Of a stretch of 64,000 nt of DNA, positions 1,157-61,330 are shown piece after piece (positions within the stretch are counted from its first letter, which is position 1; each line of letters starts with the position of its first letter). The DNA comes from Antarctobacter heliothermus. Its GTDB lineage: Bacteria > Pseudomonadota > Alphaproteobacteria > Rhodobacterales > Rhodobacteraceae. Location: NCBI RefSeq assembly GCF_002237555.1, contig NZ_CP022540.1:2054501-2118500 (forward strand), written 5' to 3'. Under the pieces are notes generated by a model. The model saw only the letters and a program-made list of their open reading frames with translations. It did not search any database and was not told the origin of the DNA. The translations under genes and the position numbers were made by a program.

Positions 1157-2041
1157 TTACCAATGACATGCGTCCGTCAACGGGCGCAGGGCCTCTTCAA
1201 GGCCGCGTATGTCGAATTCTATCTCCAGCGGGCTTTCACTGTGGGGCGTCAGCCGCAGGAACAATGTCTCACCTCCCAGCAACTGCTTGATCACCGGGAT
1301 AGAGGCGCCACCGTTCCACAGGCCAAGCGCTGTGTTGTCCGTCGAGACCTTCATGGACTTCACAAAAGGCTTTTGCGTATCCACGCGCATGTCGACGCGG
1401 TCCCGCCCCTGAATGTCCGACAGAAAGAACCCGCCCGCGTTGACGTAAAAAACCGTGGTGTTTTCCTTGCAGCGCAGGAACAGGGCGGCGGATTTTGTCT
1501 GACCGAACCGGTCGTACAGCGCGTTTTCAGCTGGCAGGGACAGGACAACCGTGGCGGTGTCGTCAAAGTTTGACACCGAAGTGGAGACTTGCCATTTGCC
1601 GGGATCGACCTGCACCGGTTCGGGCGTGGGCGTGGGCGTGGGCGTGGGCGTGGGCGTGGGCGTGGGCGTGGGCGTGGGCGTGGCAAGCTGCAGCGGGGCG
1701 GTATTAACGGGGCCGTTTACGGTCAGGCAGGTCCCCTGTTCTTCAGCGAGCACCTGTGCATCCAAACTGACCTGTAGAATGCCGGTCTGGGGGGCGAAGG
1801 TTAGGCCGTAGCCTTGGACTGAGGCGGTTTCAAATCGGTGTCGACCCTGCCCGACATGAAGTGTGACCGGGGCCCGCCCACCGAACCTGAGAGTCGCGTC
1901 CTGCAAAGGGTCAGAGGGGTAGTGGGTGACCACATCGGGGAGGGTTTCGAATGAACAGGCCACGTAAACGCCATCGGACGCGATGGCGGGGGCCGCGGCC
2001 AGAACCGCAGGTAAGAGACAGGCGCGCAGCAGGTCAGCCAT
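1157..2041 (-). CDS. secreted TagO/VasI-like protein with Thr-Pro linker
   Basis: About 294 residues. An N-terminal signal peptide (ADLLRACLLPAVLAAAPAIA) is followed by a small domain ending near residue 125, ten Thr-Pro dipeptides, and a C-terminal domain. The last domain matches my memory of the TagO/VasI family: it starts GKWQVS, contains LFLRCKENTTVFYVN and GGETLFLRLTPHSESP, and ends GLEEALRPLTDACHW. TagO proteins are periplasmic factors associated with type VI secretion, but no type VI genes are visible here. ATG at 2041 is preferred because it overlaps the ATPase stop by 8 bases; a GTG six codons upstream (2059) is the alternative. The family call is moderately sure; the function in this operon is unknown. 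Confidence 0.7.
   Translation of the reverse strand: MADLLRACLLPAVLAAAPAIASDGVYVACSFETLPDVVTHYPSDPLQDATLRFGGRAPVTLHVGQGRHRFETASVQGYGLTFAPQTGILQVSLDAQVLAEEQGTCLTVNGPVNTAPLQLATPTPTPTPTPTPTPTPTPTPEPVQVDPGKWQVSTSVSNFDDTATVVLSLPAENALYDRFGQTKSAALFLRCKENTTVFYVNAGGFFLSDIQGRDRVDMRVDTQKPFVKSMKVSTDNTALGLWNGGASIPVIKQLLGGETLFLRLTPHSESPLEIEFDIRGLEEALRPLTDACHW
1623..1682 (-). repeat. ten tandem hexamers encoding (Thr-Pro)10
   Basis: On the minus strand the hexamer ACGCCC is repeated ten times without interruption (plus strand GGCGTG x10). It encodes the Thr-Pro linker between the two domains of the TagO-like protein. Because the unit is six bases, gain or loss of units keeps the frame and changes only linker length. 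Confidence 0.95.
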
Positions 2042-3744: not shown

Positions 3745-4749
3745 TCAGAAGTTCAGAACCGGGCAGGCGTCGTCCGACGAATAGTCGTGGACCGAGATTT
3801 CGCCCGCGATGATCTGCTCACGCGCGGCATCCACGGCGGCTTTCATTTCGTCGCTGACCAGATCGGCGTTGTTGTCGTCCAGCGCGTAACCGACGCCGTT
3901 GTTGGCCAGACCCAGCGCGATCACGCCGGTTTCCAGATCGGGGCCGGCCGACATGGCATCGAACACGGCGACATCGACGCGCTTGAGCATCGAGGTCAGA
4001 ACCGAACCGGGGTGCAGGTAGTTCTGGTTGCTGTCGACGCCGACGGACAGGATACCCTCATCGGCGGCGGTTTGCAGCACACCCAGACCGGTGCCACCGG
4101 CGGCGGCATAGATCACGTCCGCGCCTTGCGAAATCTGCGCTTTGGCCAGTTCCGAACCCTTGACCGGGTCATTCCATGCCGCGGGTGTGGTGCCGGTCAT
4201 GTTGGAAATGACCTTGGCATCCGGTTTGACGGCCAGCACGCCCTGCGCATAGCCGCAGGCAAACTTGCGGATCAGCGGGATGTCCATGCCGCCGACAAAG
4301 CCGACGGTGTCGGATTCGGAGGCCATCGCCGCCATCATGCCGACAAGGTAGCTGCCCTCATGTTCGGCAAACAGGACCGACAGCACGTTCGGGTGCGCCT
4401 CGGGGTCGACGTAGCCATCGATGGTGACGAATTTGGTGTCCGGATACTCGGGTGCCACGGCGGTGATCGGCGTGGACATCGAAAAGCCGGTGGTCACGAT
4501 CGGGTTGAAACCGGCCTCGGCGAAGCGGCGCAGAGCCTGCTCACGCTGGACTTCGGACTGCAGTTCGATGTCGCGGTAGTTGCCGCCGGTTTCGGCCTTG
4601 TACCGTTCGGCACCATTGAAACCGGCCTCGTTGAAGGATTTGTCGAACTTGCCGCCGAGGTCATAGATCAGCGCCGCGTCCGCAACTGCCGCGCCGGCGC
4701 TGAGGGCCAATGCGGCGACGGTGCCGAGGGTCTTGGCAAAGAAGGTCAT
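3745..4749 (-). CDS. BMP family periplasmic substrate-binding protein
   Basis: First gene of the importer operon; 334 residues. The ATG at 4749 follows an AGGGAG ribosome site and opens a signal peptide (KTLGTVAALALSAGAAVADA) with a likely cleavage after AVA or ADA. The mature protein begins ALIYDLGGKFDKSFNEAGFN, typical of the Bmp/PnrA family, and contains the family segment DVIYAAAGGTGLGV. PnrA-type proteins bind purine nucleosides; other members bind different small solutes, so the ligand here is not fixed by sequence. There is no lipobox cysteine, so it is probably free in the periplasm. Confidence 0.93.
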   Translation of the reverse strand: MTFFAKTLGTVAALALSAGAAVADAALIYDLGGKFDKSFNEAGFNGAERYKAETGGNYRDIELQSEVQREQALRRFAEAGFNPIVTTGFSMSTPITAVAPEYPDTKFVTIDGYVDPEAHPNVLSVLFAEHEGSYLVGMMAAMASESDTVGFVGGMDIPLIRKFACGYAQGVLAVKPDAKVISNMTGTTPAAWNDPVKGSELAKAQISQGADVIYAAAGGTGLGVLQTAADEGILSVGVDSNQNYLHPGSVLTSMLKRVDVAVFDAMSAGPDLETGVIALGLANNGVGYALDDNNADLVSDEMKAAVDAAREQIIAGEISVHDYSSDDACPVLNF

Positions 4750-4874
4750 GGAAGGCTCCCTGGTGTGACGGGCAGATTTTCCGCCCGGTCTGTTTATGAT
4801 GCGGCAATGAAAGCCGCAGGGGGCAGGGGGGGTCAACCGGTTTTTGCAGAGGGACCAATGCCAAAGGCCTGACG

Positions 4875-5288
4875 TCAGGGCAAAGAGCGGGACATGATTA
4901 CGGCATCATCGCGGGTGCCGTCGGGGCGCGGATAGTAGGCGCGGCGCAGGCCGACGCGGGTATATCCCTGCCCGGAATAAAAGGCGCGGGCCGCGTCATT
5001 GGCGGCGGCGACCTCAAGGAACACGCGTGTCGCCCCGCGCGCGGCGGCCTGTGTGTGAAAGGCGGTCAGGGCGCGCGATGCCTCGCCCGTGCGTTGCCTG
5101 TCAGGATCGGTGGCCAGAGCGAGGATTTCGGCCTCATCGACGATGATCTGGCCAAGCACAAAGGCGTGCTCTGTCGTCGCCAGCAGGCTGTGCGGGTTGG
5201 ACAGGGATTGGGAAAATTGCGCGGCGCTCCACGGGGTCAGGTGGCGGTAGGCGCGGTGGGTGAGGGCTGCGAGGGCTTCAGGCGTCAT
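4875..5288 (-). CDS. rimI: GNAT N-acetyltransferase, RimI type (ribosomal protein S18 alanine acetyltransferase)
   Basis: A 137-residue single-domain GNAT enzyme. The acetyl-CoA pyrophosphate loop is visible as RQRTGEASRAL after LALATDP, followed by the family segment VFLEVAAANDAARAFYSGQGY. RimI acetylates the N-terminus of ribosomal protein S18. The start overlaps the end of tsaB by 11 bases; the tsaB-rimI pairing is conserved in many bacteria and supports the call. The N-terminus is slightly shorter than in enterobacterial RimI. Confidence 0.88.
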   Translation of the reverse strand: MTPEALAALTHRAYRHLTPWSAAQFSQSLSNPHSLLATTEHAFVLGQIIVDEAEILALATDPDRQRTGEASRALTAFHTQAAARGATRVFLEVAAANDAARAFYSGQGYTRVGLRRAYYPRPDGTRDDAVIMSRSLP

Positions 5289-42538: not shown

Positions 42539-44128
42539 ATGTCCGACCTGCAGCCCGTGCGCCGTGCGCTTCTTTCTGTATCCGACAAGACCGGCCTGAT
42601 AGAGCTGGGGCAGGCGCTGGCCGCGCGGGGCATCGAACTGCTCTCGACCGGCGGATCGGCCAAAACCCTGCGCGACGCGGGACTGGACGTGCGCGACGTG
42701 GCCGACCTGACCGGGTTCCCGGAGATGATGGATGGCCGGGTCAAGACGCTGCACCCCAAGGTGCATGGCGGTCTGCTGGCGCTGCGCGACGACGGCATGC
42801 ATGTGGCGTCGATGGCCGAACATGGCATTGTGCCCATCGACCTGCTGGTGGTGAACCTGTACCCGTTCGAGGCGGCACTGGCGCGCGGGGCCGACTACGA
42901 TGAGATGATCGAGAACATCGACATCGGCGGCCCGGCAATGATCCGCGCCGCAGCCAAGAACCACGCCTTTGTCACCACCATCGTCGATGTGCAGGACTAC
43001 GACGCGCTGCTGGCGGAACTTGACGCCAACGACGGTCTGACCAGCATCGAGTTCCGCAAGCGGCAGGCGCAGATCGCCTATGCCCGCACCGGGGCCTATG
43101 ACGCCGCCGTCAGCACTTGGATGGCCGCCGCCATCGGTGAGACAACCCCGCGTCGCCGCGTCTTTGCCGGAACACTGGCGCAGCCGCTGCGCTATGGGGA
43201 AAACCCGCACCAGAACGCCGCCTTTTACACCGATGGGTCAGAGCGCCCCGGCGTGGCGACCGCCGAACAGTTGCAGGGCAAGGAACTCAGCTACAACAAC
43301 ATCAACGACACCGACGCGGCGTTTGAACTGGTGTCGGAATTTCTGCCCGCCAATGGTCCGGCCTGCGCGATCATCAAACACGCCAATCCCTGCGGCGTGG
43401 CGACGGGGGCCACCATCAAGGAGGCCTATCAAAAGGCATTCGATTGTGACCGCACGTCGGCCTTTGGTGGCATCGTGGCGCTGAACGGCGCGCTGGACGG
43501 CCAAACGGCAGAGGCCATCGCCGAGATCTTTACCGAAGTCGTCATCGCCCCCGCAATCCATCAGGACGCGCGCGACATCTTTGCCAAGAAAAAGAACCTG
43601 CGCCTGATCCTTGCCCCCGGCCTAGCCAACCCGGCACAGGCAGGCGTGGCGTGGAAACAGGTGTCGGGCGGCCTGCTGGTGCAGGACCGCGACAACGGTG
43701 CACGGTCGTTGGACGACCTGAAAGTGGTGACGAAACTGGCCCCGACTGAGGCGCAGATGAAGGACCTTCTGTTCGCATGGAAGGTCGCCAAACACGTCAA
43801 ATCCAACGCCATCGTCTATGTGCGTGACGGCGCAACCGTGGGTGTCGGCGCGGGCCAGATGAGCCGGGTCGATTCGGCGATGATCGCGGCGAAAAAGGCC
43901 GAGCGTATGGCAGAGGCGCTGGGCCTCTCGGCGCCGCTGACCCAAGGCTCCGCCGTGGCCTCGGACGCGTTCTTCCCCTTCCCCGACGGGTTGATGGAGG
44001 CCGCCGCCGCTGGCGCGACCTGCGTCATCCAGCCGGGCGGGTCGATGCGTGACGATGAGGTGATCGCCGCTGCCGATGAGGCCGGTCTGGCCATGGTCTT
44101 TACCGGCATGCGCCACTTCCGCCACTAA
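42539..44128 (+). CDS. purH: bifunctional AICAR formyltransferase / IMP cyclohydrolase
   Basis: 529 residues. The N-terminal IMP cyclohydrolase (MGS) domain has [20 protein letters not shown] and [18 protein letters not shown]; the C-terminal AICARFT domain has [20 protein letters not shown] and the catalytic segment [13 protein letters not shown]. It performs the last two steps of IMP synthesis. A GAAGGAACATCC stretch precedes the ATG. It follows the heparinase gene by 42 bases. Confidence 0.97.
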
Positions 44129-59243: not shown

Positions 59244-59972
59244 ATGACAGTGCAGACGCCAAAAATCCGCCTCTATGTAGAGCACCCCTTGGGGCAGGAA
59301 CAACAGGTCGGCCTGTCGCGGGAGCAGGCGCATTACCTGTTCGGCGTGATGCGGCTGACAGTGGGCGCACAAGTGGCCCTGTTCAACGGCACCGACGGCG
59401 AATGGCGGGCCGAGGTCGCAGAGGCCGGCAAACGCGGCGGCACCCTTGTCTGCCGCGCCCAAACCGCGCCGCAAACCCTGCCGCCCGACCTCTGGCTGTT
59501 GTTTGCCCCGATCAAAAAGGCACGCACCGATTTCATCGTCGAAAAATCGGTTGAGATGGGCGCGCGCCGCATCCTGCCCGTGCAGACCGCCTTTACGAAC
59601 TCTGAACGCATCCGGCAGGACCGCCTGCAGGCCCACGCGACAGAGGCGGCCGAACAATGCGGCGCGACCTATGTGCCAGAGGTCGCTGACCTCACCCGCC
59701 TCGACCGACTGCTGGCCGACTGGCCAGAGGACCGCCAGTTGATGTTCTGCGATGAGGCCCGCGCCGGTGCCGCCACCGCCCTGCCAAATACCCCCGGCCC
59801 ATGGGCCATCCTGATCGGGCCAGAGGGCGGCATTTCCGACGCGGAACGCACAAAACTGCACGCGCTGCCCTATGCCCATGCCATAGCCCTTGGCCCGCGC
59901 ATCCTGCGCGCCGACACCGCCGCCGTCGCTGCCCTGACGATCTGGCAAACCACGCTTGGAGACTGGCAATGA
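59244..59972 (+). CDS. rsmE: 16S rRNA m3U1498 methyltransferase
   Basis: 242 residues. An N-terminal PUA-like domain (EQQVGLSREQAHYLFGVMRL) precedes the SPOUT domain with LLFAPIKKARTDFIVEKSVE, ILIGPEGGISDAERTKL and IALGPRILRADTAAVAALTI. It methylates U1498 of 16S rRNA. The stop TGA (59970-59972) overlaps an ATG (59969) that begins the first copy of the 18-bp direct repeat; this ATG was probably once the start of the gene now at 60806. Confidence 0.95.
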   Translation: MTVQTPKIRLYVEHPLGQEQQVGLSREQAHYLFGVMRLTVGAQVALFNGTDGEWRAEVAEAGKRGGTLVCRAQTAPQTLPPDLWLLFAPIKKARTDFIVEKSVEMGARRILPVQTAFTNSERIRQDRLQAHATEAAEQCGATYVPEVADLTRLDRLLADWPEDRQLMFCDEARAGAATALPNTPGPWAILIGPEGGISDAERTKLHALPYAHAIALGPRILRADTAAVAALTIWQTTLGDWQ

Positions 59973-59983
59973 TCCGCCCCGCC
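59966..59983 (+). repeat. left copy of 18-bp direct repeat
   Basis: Sequence GCAATGATCCGCCCCGCC. It contains the last codon and stop of rsmE and the ATG at 59969 that opens the vestigial 23-codon frame. Confidence 0.95.
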
Positions 59984-60040
59984 AGAGGACAGTGGCGGAA
60001 TGTACTGGTTGGCCCATCTAAGATGTGGAAATGCCACTAG
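59969..60040 (+). other. vestigial 23-codon open frame (start of the downstream gene)
   Basis: Read from ATG 59969, the frame encodes MIRPARGQWRNVLVGPSKMW KCH and stops at TAG. The first five residues (MIRPA) match the start of the intact gene at 60806, because both come from the 18-bp repeat; afterwards the sequences differ. It is probably the truncated start left when the nuclease gene was inserted, and I do not think it is translated usefully. Confidence 0.6.
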
Positions 60041-60062
60041 TTTTGCATGACAGGAGTGCTTG

Positions 60063-60809
60063 ATGCGCAACGACTTTGAAATCTGGATGGAACGCCAAGG
60101 GTATGCTGAAAATACCCGAGGCGCGCAATTGCATCGCGTCGGTAAGGTTGAGAAATGCTATGGTCCCATTGACGATCTGATTGCTTCCAACACGTTTGAG
60201 GAAGTGATTCGAGAGCTCACTTACTCGACCGAAGATGAACGCCTTGGTCGCCCCAACCCGTCTCGAATTCAATTCAATGGCAATATCAGAAACAATCTGG
60301 CCTCTTACAAAAACGCCGCGCTGCGATATGGCCGGTTTCTGGAAGAAACCGACGGGGTTCCTCTCGACGACGAAGGCGACACAGAAGCCGAATTCTCTGA
60401 TCGAGTCGCTACCGCCCAACCTGAGCGCCACAAACTGGCATTGGAAAGGGACATGCAAGCTGCGCTTCGTCGGGATATTTTGTCGCTAGGCAAAGACCTG
60501 AGCATTGTCGATGACGGTGTGGAGCGGTCCGTTGCCTCTGGCTACATCGATATTCTTTGCGAAAATGAAGCAAAGGACTTTGTCGTAGTCGAGTTGAAAG
60601 CGGGACAGACTGATCCTCGAGTCATTGCGCAAATCCTTGGCTACATGGGAGACTTGCTGGAAGAAGAGCCGGCGCGATCAGTGGCCGGAATTATCGTGGC
60701 GCATGAATTCGATAGACGCACAATTGCGGCGGCGCGGGCGATCCCGAATCTCCGATTGATGAAATACCATGTGCATTTCAGTTTCTCAGAGCTTGGCATA
60801 GCGCAATGA
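60063..60809 (+). CDS. NucS-like PDDEXK nuclease with extra N-terminal domain
   Basis: 248 residues. The C-terminal half (about 125-248) looks like the NucS nuclease core: Asp163 in SGYIDILCENE, Glu177 and Lys179 in VVVELKAGQTD, and Gln190/Tyr194 in IAQILGYMGDLLEEEP. The N-terminal ~95 residues (for example RNDFEIWMERQGYAENTRGA) resemble the core-binding fold of tyrosine recombinases rather than the usual NucS N-domain; this comparison is from memory. AGGAG precedes ATG 60063. Its stop is in the right-hand direct repeat and overlaps the next start. GC is lower than that of its neighbours. Function unknown; DNA cleavage is likely. Confidence 0.8.
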   Translation: MRNDFEIWMERQGYAENTRGAQLHRVGKVEKCYGPIDDLIASNTFEEVIRELTYSTEDERLGRPNPSRIQFNGNIRNNLASYKNAALRYGRFLEETDGVPLDDEGDTEAEFSDRVATAQPERHKLALERDMQAALRRDILSLGKDLSIVDDGVERSVASGYIDILCENEAKDFVVVELKAGQTDPRVIAQILGYMGDLLEEEPARSVAGIIVAHEFDRRTIAAARAIPNLRLMKYHVHFSFSELGIAQ

Positions 60810-60820
60810 TCCGCCCCGCC
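60803..60820 (+). repeat. right copy of 18-bp direct repeat
   Basis: Identical to the left copy. It holds the last codon and stop of the nuclease gene and the ATG (60806) of the following membrane-protein gene, in the same arrangement as at the rsmE end. Confidence 0.95.
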
Positions 60821-61330
60821 GCCGCTGCCGTGATCAAACGCTGGCAAGAGGCGCTGATTGGCGTCGGTGTTGTCCTTTTGGGTCTCTATTGGGCCTTTTT
60901 GACGGGCGGTGGCCTGCTGCATTGGATCGGCTATGTGGTGATCGCACTTGGCATAGCCCTCACCGTCACCGGCATTCAGCGGGCGCGCTTTCGCACCGGC
61001 GATGATGGCCCCGGCGTGGTGCAGGTGGTCGAACGCAGGATCAGCTATTTCGGCCCACTCTCCGGCGGCATCGTCGATCTTGAGGCGCTACAGGCGCTCA
61101 GCCTTGATCCCGCCTCGAAACCGCCGGTCTGGCTGCTGATGGCACCGGGCCAGCCGCGCCTTGAAATCCCGCTGACCGCCAAGGGCGCGGATCAGCTTTT
61201 TGATGCCTTCGCCACCCTGCCGGGCATCCGCACCGAACACATGCTGCGCCAAATGCAAGAGCGCGCCGCACATACAGTTGTCATCTGGCGCGCGGCTTCT
61301 GTGCGCGATGCGGCACGTCGCTTGCATTGA
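60806..61330 (+). CDS. membrane protein of unknown function
   Basis: 174 residues. Two membrane helices (about 15-33 and 38-55: ALIGVGVVLLGLYWAFLTGG and LHWIGYVVIALGIALTVTGI) are followed by a soluble domain of about 115 residues with RISYFGPLSGGIVDLEALQA and PVWLLMAPGQPRLEIPLTAK. No family recognised. Its ATG overlaps the TGA of the nuclease gene (ATGA), as it presumably did with rsmE before the insertion. Confidence 0.85.
   Translation: MIRPAAAAVIKRWQEALIGVGVVLLGLYWAFLTGGGLLHWIGYVVIALGIALTVTGIQRARFRTGDDGPGVVQVVERRISYFGPLSGGIVDLEALQALSLDPASKPPVWLLMAPGQPRLEIPLTAKGADQLFDAFATLPGIRTEHMLRQMQERAAHTVVIWRAASVRDAARRLH

Follow-up and report, generated by a model that had tools for sequence, protein, structure and literature searches.

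Most of what is known about free-standing homing endonuclease genes comes from phages and organelles. In T-even phages, the seg and mob genes are described as single nuclease genes located between conserved genes, patchily distributed among relatives and combining a nuclease with a separate DNA-binding domain; they are of the GIY-YIG or HNH type, several were shown to cut and move, and phage free-standing enzymes may cut hundreds of bases from their own gene (PMC2988022). Mobile endonuclease open reading frames (ORFs) of fungal mitochondria, of the LAGLIDADG or GIY-YIG type, are found behind atp6, atp9, cox2 and nad3 of Glomus and atp6 of Allomyces, where the host gene has a foreign 3′ end and the native end is located downstream (PMC3630166). 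Here we describe a nuclease gene of Antarctobacter heliothermus located between rsmE and a putative membrane protein gene (memb below) in a 64,000-nucleotide stretch of contig NZ_CP022540.1 (positions 2,054,501 to 2,118,500), which is referred to as the window. The gene and its relatives share with the T-even genes the solitary position, the patchy occurrence and the two-domain product, while one relative, behind guaA in locus L126, resembles the fungal arrangement. The family differs from both in being NucS-like, mostly chromosomal and known from sequence, and the window copy shows no replaced gene end, only 18 bp being duplicated.

By a judgement slightly better than even, the insert in the window arrived recently and is a mobile nuclease gene, free-standing and site-specific, which would act like a homing endonuclease gene. 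The first-pass annotation of this DNA had described an inserted nuclease gene with an exact 18-mer at both ends, each copy holding a stop codon and an ATG, and this description holds (Table 1). The only exact copies of the 18-mer, GCAATGATCCGCCCCGCC, in the whole 5,331,190-base genome are these two, 837 bp apart, and with up to two mismatches it occurs in eight places, these two included. Exact words common to both flanks of the nuclease gene did not exceed 11 nt in 20 shuffles, against the 18 observed. One of the near copies, with two mismatches, is located at 42935-42952 of the window and is probably due to chance.

The first copy consists of the rsmE stop and an ATG which is now idle; the frame it opens in the insert leader reads MIRPARGQWRNVLVGPSKMWKCH and then stops. 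The second copy combines the nuclease stop (GCG CAA TGA) with the ATG of memb. As the nuclease stop lies inside the second copy, the insert appears to use a stop codon that belonged to the former junction, and the memb start still overlaps a stop, now that of the nuclease instead of that of rsmE, just as had been proposed. The insertion unit of 837 bp comprises an 819-bp payload and one 18-mer. Payload GC content is 51.8% vs 63.2% for the window, lower than in every one of 1264 stretches of equal length taken in 50-base steps, and third-position GC content is 54.0 in the nuclease gene vs 77.7 in rsmE and 71.8 in memb; judged by its GC content, the payload is foreign. We see no other likely gene in it than the nuclease, with several short or antisense ORFs also present in the ORF listing. 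No transposase is found in the payload with its single likely gene, and it does not qualify as an insertion sequence or a transposon; inverted repeats were not found at the payload ends. A recombinase is likewise absent from the payload (this search did not extend to the remainder of the genome), in agreement with the earlier statement that neither a transposase nor an integrase is present. By our own reading an AGGAG-like sequence precedes the nuclease ATG, a consensus scan of the 79-bp leader has found no sigma-70-like promoter, and TTG at 60060 is a possible alternative start. DNA and protein searches found no further copies of the nuclease in the genome.

The empty site is present in the closest relative. 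Six genomes of the genus, including that of the window (G000), were compared, and in G383, the closest by rsmE, rsmE runs straight into memb through a single 18-mer (locus L035), giving the rsmE-ATGA-MIRPAA junction which the first-pass annotation had named as the mark of an insertion, and which confirms it. Both host genes of the window are intact, with 91% (rsmE) and 93% (memb) protein identity to G383; as claimed, neither was damaged and the junction was recreated. In the remaining four members of the genus a different gene of about 0.84 kb lies between rsmE and memb; Pfam identifies the one tested (L036) as a GNAT acetyltransferase. Among 34 loci of the bacterial family the rsmE/memb seam is empty in 17, carries another insert (830-1062 bp) in 12, a 216-bp spacer in one, the nuclease in one (the window) and is undecided in three. 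The nuclease protein was matched in 23 of 394 genomes of that family; the full gene is at the rsmE/memb seam in four of these 23 loci (the window, L012, L013 and L015), and its N-terminal domain (N-domain) alone in L023, making five at the junction. The same nuclease and repeats in nearly all relatives, which would have spoken against insertion, were not seen; no flanking repeats were found at the other junctions tested.

Relatives of the nuclease occupy the seams of several core genes. The scan of named genomes gave 117 relatives, 80 loci being kept and four viral loci added; gene neighbours were read from the loci, and Pfam was run on ten of them. Besides the window, the nuclease is located behind rsmE in seven loci (L083, L084, L085, L091, L092, L095, L103) from Ruegeria, Rhodobacter SW2, Mangrovicoccus, Thiosulfatihalobacter and uncultured Rhodobacterales. 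The downstream gene is visible in six of them, the L095 contig ending earlier; L085, L091 and L103 are the same records as L012, L013 and L015. Twelve loci of Rhizobiales (Rhizobium, Shinella, Hoeflea, Aureimonas, Aurantimonas, Aquibium) carry it between glcE and glcF, named by our own reading of genes for which Pfam gives FAD_binding_4 and iron-sulfur domains. It follows guaA in 13 measured loci and separates pntAA from pntAB in four. Others are located near nuoD, prfC, rlmN or tldD, and many loci are unclassified by site.

The nuclease fits its seams tightly. The distance from the guaA stop is at most 12 bp in nine of 13 loci and 20, 68, 68 and 98 bp in the others, some of the nuclease starts used here being alignment starts and not start codons. 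The gap is -1 in all four pntAA loci and -5 to +22 in all seven rsmE loci besides the window, where the nuclease starts 90 bp behind rsmE. From the glcE stop it is at most 14 bp in seven of 12 loci (246-648 bp in the other five), and the nuclease stop is -1 to +6 from glcF in all 12. The nuclease is co-directional with the host gene in each of the 36 loci measured. In L116, the last codons of guaA form, by our own reading, an imperfect tandem just before the nuclease start (about 3960-4000), which may be a trace of nuclease arrival. In a metagenome-assembled genome of Sphingomonadaceae (L097:4001-5481), a distant family nuclease is convergent to rsmE and meets the gene end from the opposite side. 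L109, a record titled Exiguobacterium profundum SSD5, seems to be misnamed, given that its guaA shares 83% identity with the guaA of Rhodobacteraceae genome G206.

The nuclease is found in a minority of genomes wherever occupancy was sampled. In the Ruegeria group two of 54 genomes match the whole occupied seam, and 30 opened loci include two with the nuclease, 27 with another insert of 805-847 bp and one without the downstream gene in range; the nuclease is located here where nearly all opened relatives carry the other insert of about 0.84 kb, not an empty junction. One of six Sulfitobacter loci is occupied (L124), the other five being empty sites with spacers of 54-93 bp. In the Rhizobium and Sphingomonas groups, one of 148 and one of 151 genomes match the occupied seam in DNA comparisons, which could overlook a diverged nuclease; spacers at the unoccupied seam are 17-458 bp long in 14 Rhizobium loci and 24-855 bp in 11 Sphingomonas loci. 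The pntAA/pntAB seam of Sphingomonas (L213-L223), with these spacers, is a variable slot inside a core operon. At the glcE/glcF seam of Rhizobium (L225-L239), several spacers of about 220 bp contain GC-rich palindrome-like repeats and others are about 20 bp long. Beyond chromosomes, 14 plasmid records match, one of them over most of the protein, and no match was found among 50,697 phage records. On one viral contig (L148:3384-5226) a relative of the nuclease is flanked by a tail protein gene on one side and a gene of unknown function on the other.

The site largely follows the nuclease clade. In the tree of 60 nucleases, 35 rows fall into four site classes and need four site changes, the minimum being three, while shuffled site labels need 18.5 on average and none of 200 shuffles was as low as four; the other 25 rows belong to no site class and are outside this count. 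The guaA copies and the pntA copies are each confined to one side of a branch (support 100/98 and 100/97, unclassed rows uncounted), and the seven rsmE-site copies other than that of the window are united in a single clade (98/93). The trees leave out 19 loci (L129-L147) and L149-L151, which are partial protein matches; L117, L119 and L120 are in no nuclease tree, and L107, absent from the 60-row tree, is in another one with its stops read as X. L125 was considered as a guaA-site copy and rejected for lack of a guaA gene in the locus; it belongs to none of the site classes.

Locus L126 has a guaA gene with the nuclease starting 3 bp behind it, and a second guaA 3′ end is located downstream of the nuclease, the two ends lying at 3809-3982 and 4720-4893. 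The second tail of about 174 nt is open and in frame to its stop, and the gene after it, which is ABM-like (Pfam was checked on the L110 gene only), also follows guaA in G206. The two 174-nt tails differ at 26 sites (4, 3 and 19 by codon position), with four amino-acid differences. Tails of 29 relatives have at least 22 differences from the first tail and at least 26 from the second, the median being 29 for both; 34 loci had been tried, most picked by likeness to the L126 region and some from one genus. Since the two tails differ from each other about as much as from those of relatives, they look like orthologues from different species. Very likely, then, as far as these alignments can tell, the tail of the working guaA of L126 was imported together with the nuclease, and the native one was displaced to its downstream position. 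The native tail was assigned by position, nucleotide likeness to relatives not deciding the matter. The distance from relatives is 3-6 amino acids for the downstream tail and 1-5 for the first, and this slightly larger distance might fit a copy released from selection.

The product of the window gene consists of a helical N-domain of about 95 residues (1-97), a linker (103-120) and a NucS-like PD-(D/E)XK domain from about residue 121. Pfam NucS_C covers residues 128-217 and is present in all 48 aligned relatives, as are D163, E177 and K179, which we take, by position and by comparison with NucS/EndoMS, to be the catalytic residues of the PD-(D/E)XK fold. The protein is therefore a predicted nuclease with intact catalytic residues. 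In the full AlphaFold2 model (pLDDT 89.1, pTM 0.62) the N-domain is all-helical, the linker has low confidence and a nuclease fold follows; modelled alone, the N-domain is again all-helical (pLDDT 96.6). The best solved matches in Foldseek are NucS (2vld) and EndoMS (5gke), followed by the XisH proteins 2okf and 2inb, and the N-domain has no significant match among solved structures. The feature shared with NucS/EndoMS is the C-terminal nuclease fold; sequence matches to the NucS models, 2vld and 5gke cover the C-terminal part, and the NCBIfam equivalog cutoffs are missed by far (42.7 of 216 bits and 27.6 of 252 bits). None of LAGLIDADG, HNH, GIY-YIG and His-Cys is among the 25 of 41 Pfam families shown for the 48 members. 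In its presumed mode of action the gene would be a variation on known homing genes; its sequence falls short of the score of NucS proper and shows, among the families listed, none of the four classical homing ones. Among the titles and abstract openings given by searches of open-access full text, subscription papers being outside the scope, none described a homing gene that is NucS-like, chromosomal and located at gene seams.

Taken together, the clade-following sites, the empty alleles, the tight fit and the carried-in gene tail support a homing-like mode of spread, at the level of comparative analysis; together with single nuclease genes at seams, they match the pattern of free-standing homing genes in phages and mitochondria (PMC2988022, PMC3630166). 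The nuclease would recognise a sequence at or near its own seam in unoccupied genomes and cut the DNA, and repair from an occupied copy would bring the gene in through its flanks. Occasionally, illegitimate repair might attach the gene to a seam not used before. The window copy seems to be a case of this kind, having the sole target duplication and a start 90 bp behind rsmE vs -5 to +22 in the other rsmE loci. As no duplication was found at the other sites tested, the 18-bp one is special to the window, and to us it suggests that this copy is young and arrived in a different way. The duplication could stem from staggered nicking, from template switching during repair or from a recombinase acting in trans. 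The gene behaves as if it were a single-gene genetic parasite inserting without harm to the host.

Several observations weigh against the homing-like reading. The 18-bp duplication was seen in the window copy only, in tests of 14 loci including the window and of 61 loci. Among flanking direct repeats just this one and the L126 guaA tails stand out; the next longest has 13 nt (L012/L085, one record) at shuffled maxima of 11 in the 14-locus and 14 in the 61-locus test, and a looser flank search added short matches, with longer ones in L096 and L099. A flanking direct repeat is thus not a family hallmark, none having been found at the other junctions tested, and no boundary sequence common to the inserts was found. 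The overhang of T4 SegA is reported as 2 nt (PMC2988022), the window duplication being far longer. We read the window flanks as native, with no clear trace of co-conversion: identity to G383 is 0.90 left and 0.92 right of the seam, the last full 60-base block before the seam has 57/60 matches, and the two blocks after it 56/60 and 45/60, the latter being the lowest on the right side. The Rhizobium, Sphingomonas and Sulfitobacter nucleases stand in place of spacers and have no duplication, and the differing spacer lengths indicate that such seams vary anyway. The L126 tail comes from one metagenome contig. In the tree, L106 (beside tldD) and L115 are inside the guaA clade with no guaA in either locus, and the glcE/glcF copies form a grade which also encloses a mixed-site clade including viral L148. 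A long branch places the window copy close to both the rsmE-site copies and the Rhizobium glcE/glcF copies, and the approximately unbiased (AU) test rejects neither its grouping with the former (p 0.364) nor that with the latter (p 0.445), so the gene may have arrived behind rsmE a second time, independently. Branch support in the nuclease tree, set against the guaA tree, pointed to horizontal transfer at guaA, which was not significant (AU p 0.33 and 0.07). Of the self-insertion proposed in the first-pass annotation, the general idea is favoured by the wider family (clade-following sites, empty alleles, the foreign tail), and the parts not supported are the 18-bp repeat as its signature and the boundaries expected to be shared by inserts from other genomes.

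The main rival, which we regard as unlikely, is a stand-alone defence nuclease parked at transcribed operon seams, spread by ordinary recombination and kept for cutting phage DNA. It agrees with matches to the PADLOC candidate defence families PDC-S02 (5.7e-15) and PDC-S11 (5.7e-9), which also count against homing; these have the nuclease part in common with the window protein, the rest of which is unmatched, and the names denote candidates without tested function. The N-domain also heads larger proteins in relatives (L024-L027 and L029, including one locus of G383). Three plasmid records annotate such proteins as AAA family ATPases, and Pfam gives weak matches to AAA or IstB in the two tested. 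The rsmE seam is moreover a shared slot, given the other inserts found there in 12 of the 34 family loci and in 27 of the 30 Ruegeria loci. Clade-following sites and a foreign guaA tail would be unexpected for defence cargo.

Passive capture appears distinctly improbable. A foreign fragment would have been joined into a break at the seam, the repair making the 18-bp duplication with no part played by the nuclease, and selection for frames that stay intact and overlapping would explain the neat seams. The lack of a transposase gene and of terminal inverted repeats, the restriction of the duplication to the window copy and a nuclease stop supplied by the duplicated 18-mer are all in line with such an event. 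Random capture would hardly place the same family behind rsmE in seven other loci or produce the site-by-clade structure.

We give very little weight to integration by a tyrosine recombinase acting in trans, with the 18-mer as an attachment site (att) core. A length of 18 bp is usual for an att core, weak Phage_int_SAM_1 matches occur in two of 48 relatives, and in L099 (1-2400) the nuclease and an upstream pair read as toxin-antitoxin are located between att-like repeats resembling tRNA 3′ ends. In Foldseek the N-domain matches an integron integrase poorly and far from significantly (E 8, TMq 0.42), so the N-domain as an integrase core-binding domain is only a lead. Against such integration, the payload has no recombinase, other seam copies have no flanking repeats, and no att core shared with relatives was found in the flank tests of 14 and 61 loci. 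Equally hard to credit is a first 18-mer left by a lost GNAT gene of an rsmE-GNAT-nuclease-memb order, both GNAT and memb beginning with MIRPA: in the four other genus members the GNAT start is ATGATCCGC in all four and the memb start (A/G)TGATCCG in all four (ATGATCCGC in two), but the four GNAT starts have AAGGCN vs CCCGCC in the 18-mer, the three preceding bases also match, and the sequence after the first copy is unlike GNAT.

The N-domain is also found without the nuclease. Four stand-alone ORFs of 95-102 residues (L030, L031, L023 and L022; Table 1) stop near the same domain border as in the fused protein, and no nuclease match was found behind them. They may be either decayed copies or a separate useful form, perhaps immunity proteins; similarity gives no clear tie to a nuclease of the same site. 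A more far-reaching version of the homing-like reading, tentative and on our estimate rather doubtful, is an undescribed class of chromosomal free-standing homing genes, each lineage devoted to one gene end, in which a NucS/EndoMS-type nuclease with a helical targeting domain would invade the stop/start seams of core operons and rebuild the seam, and N-domain-only copies at those same ends (guaA, rsmE) would be domesticated immunity proteins or site guards.

Table 1. Positions of the insert, its host genes and the stand-alone N-domain ORFs (locus coordinates for the latter)
Feature	Record	Position	Strand	Remarks
rsmE, upstream host gene	window	59244..59972	+	intact; 16S rRNA methyltransferase family; Pfam Methyltrans_RNA 2.5e-40, PUA_4 3.8e-12
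18-bp direct repeat, copy 1	window	59966..59983	+	rsmE stop and the first 15 nt of the downstream gene, now idle
Insert leader, 79 bp	window	59984..60062	+	GC 49.4%
Nuclease gene, 248 aa	window	60063..60809	+	ATG 60063; Pfam NucS_C 4.9e-9
18-bp direct repeat, copy 2	window	60803..60820	+	final codons and stop of the nuclease, memb ATG
memb, downstream host gene, 174 aa	window	60806..61330	+	intact; membrane protein by sequence reading; no Pfam family above cutoff
N-domain ORF	L030	1501-1797		3 bp behind guaA
N-domain ORF	L031	about 1486-1776	reverse	3 bp behind guaA
N-domain ORF	L023	about 1486-1794		between rsmE and memb, ends overlapping
N-domain ORF	L022		reverse	about 0.75 kb from guaA

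Whether this is a selfish nuclease or a parked defence gene can be tested directly on the empty allele found in a close relative. If the homing-like reading is true, it would account for the gain and loss of single genes within tightly coupled operons, and the family would represent a natural set of nucleases aimed at the gene ends of guaA, rsmE, glcE/glcF and pnt.

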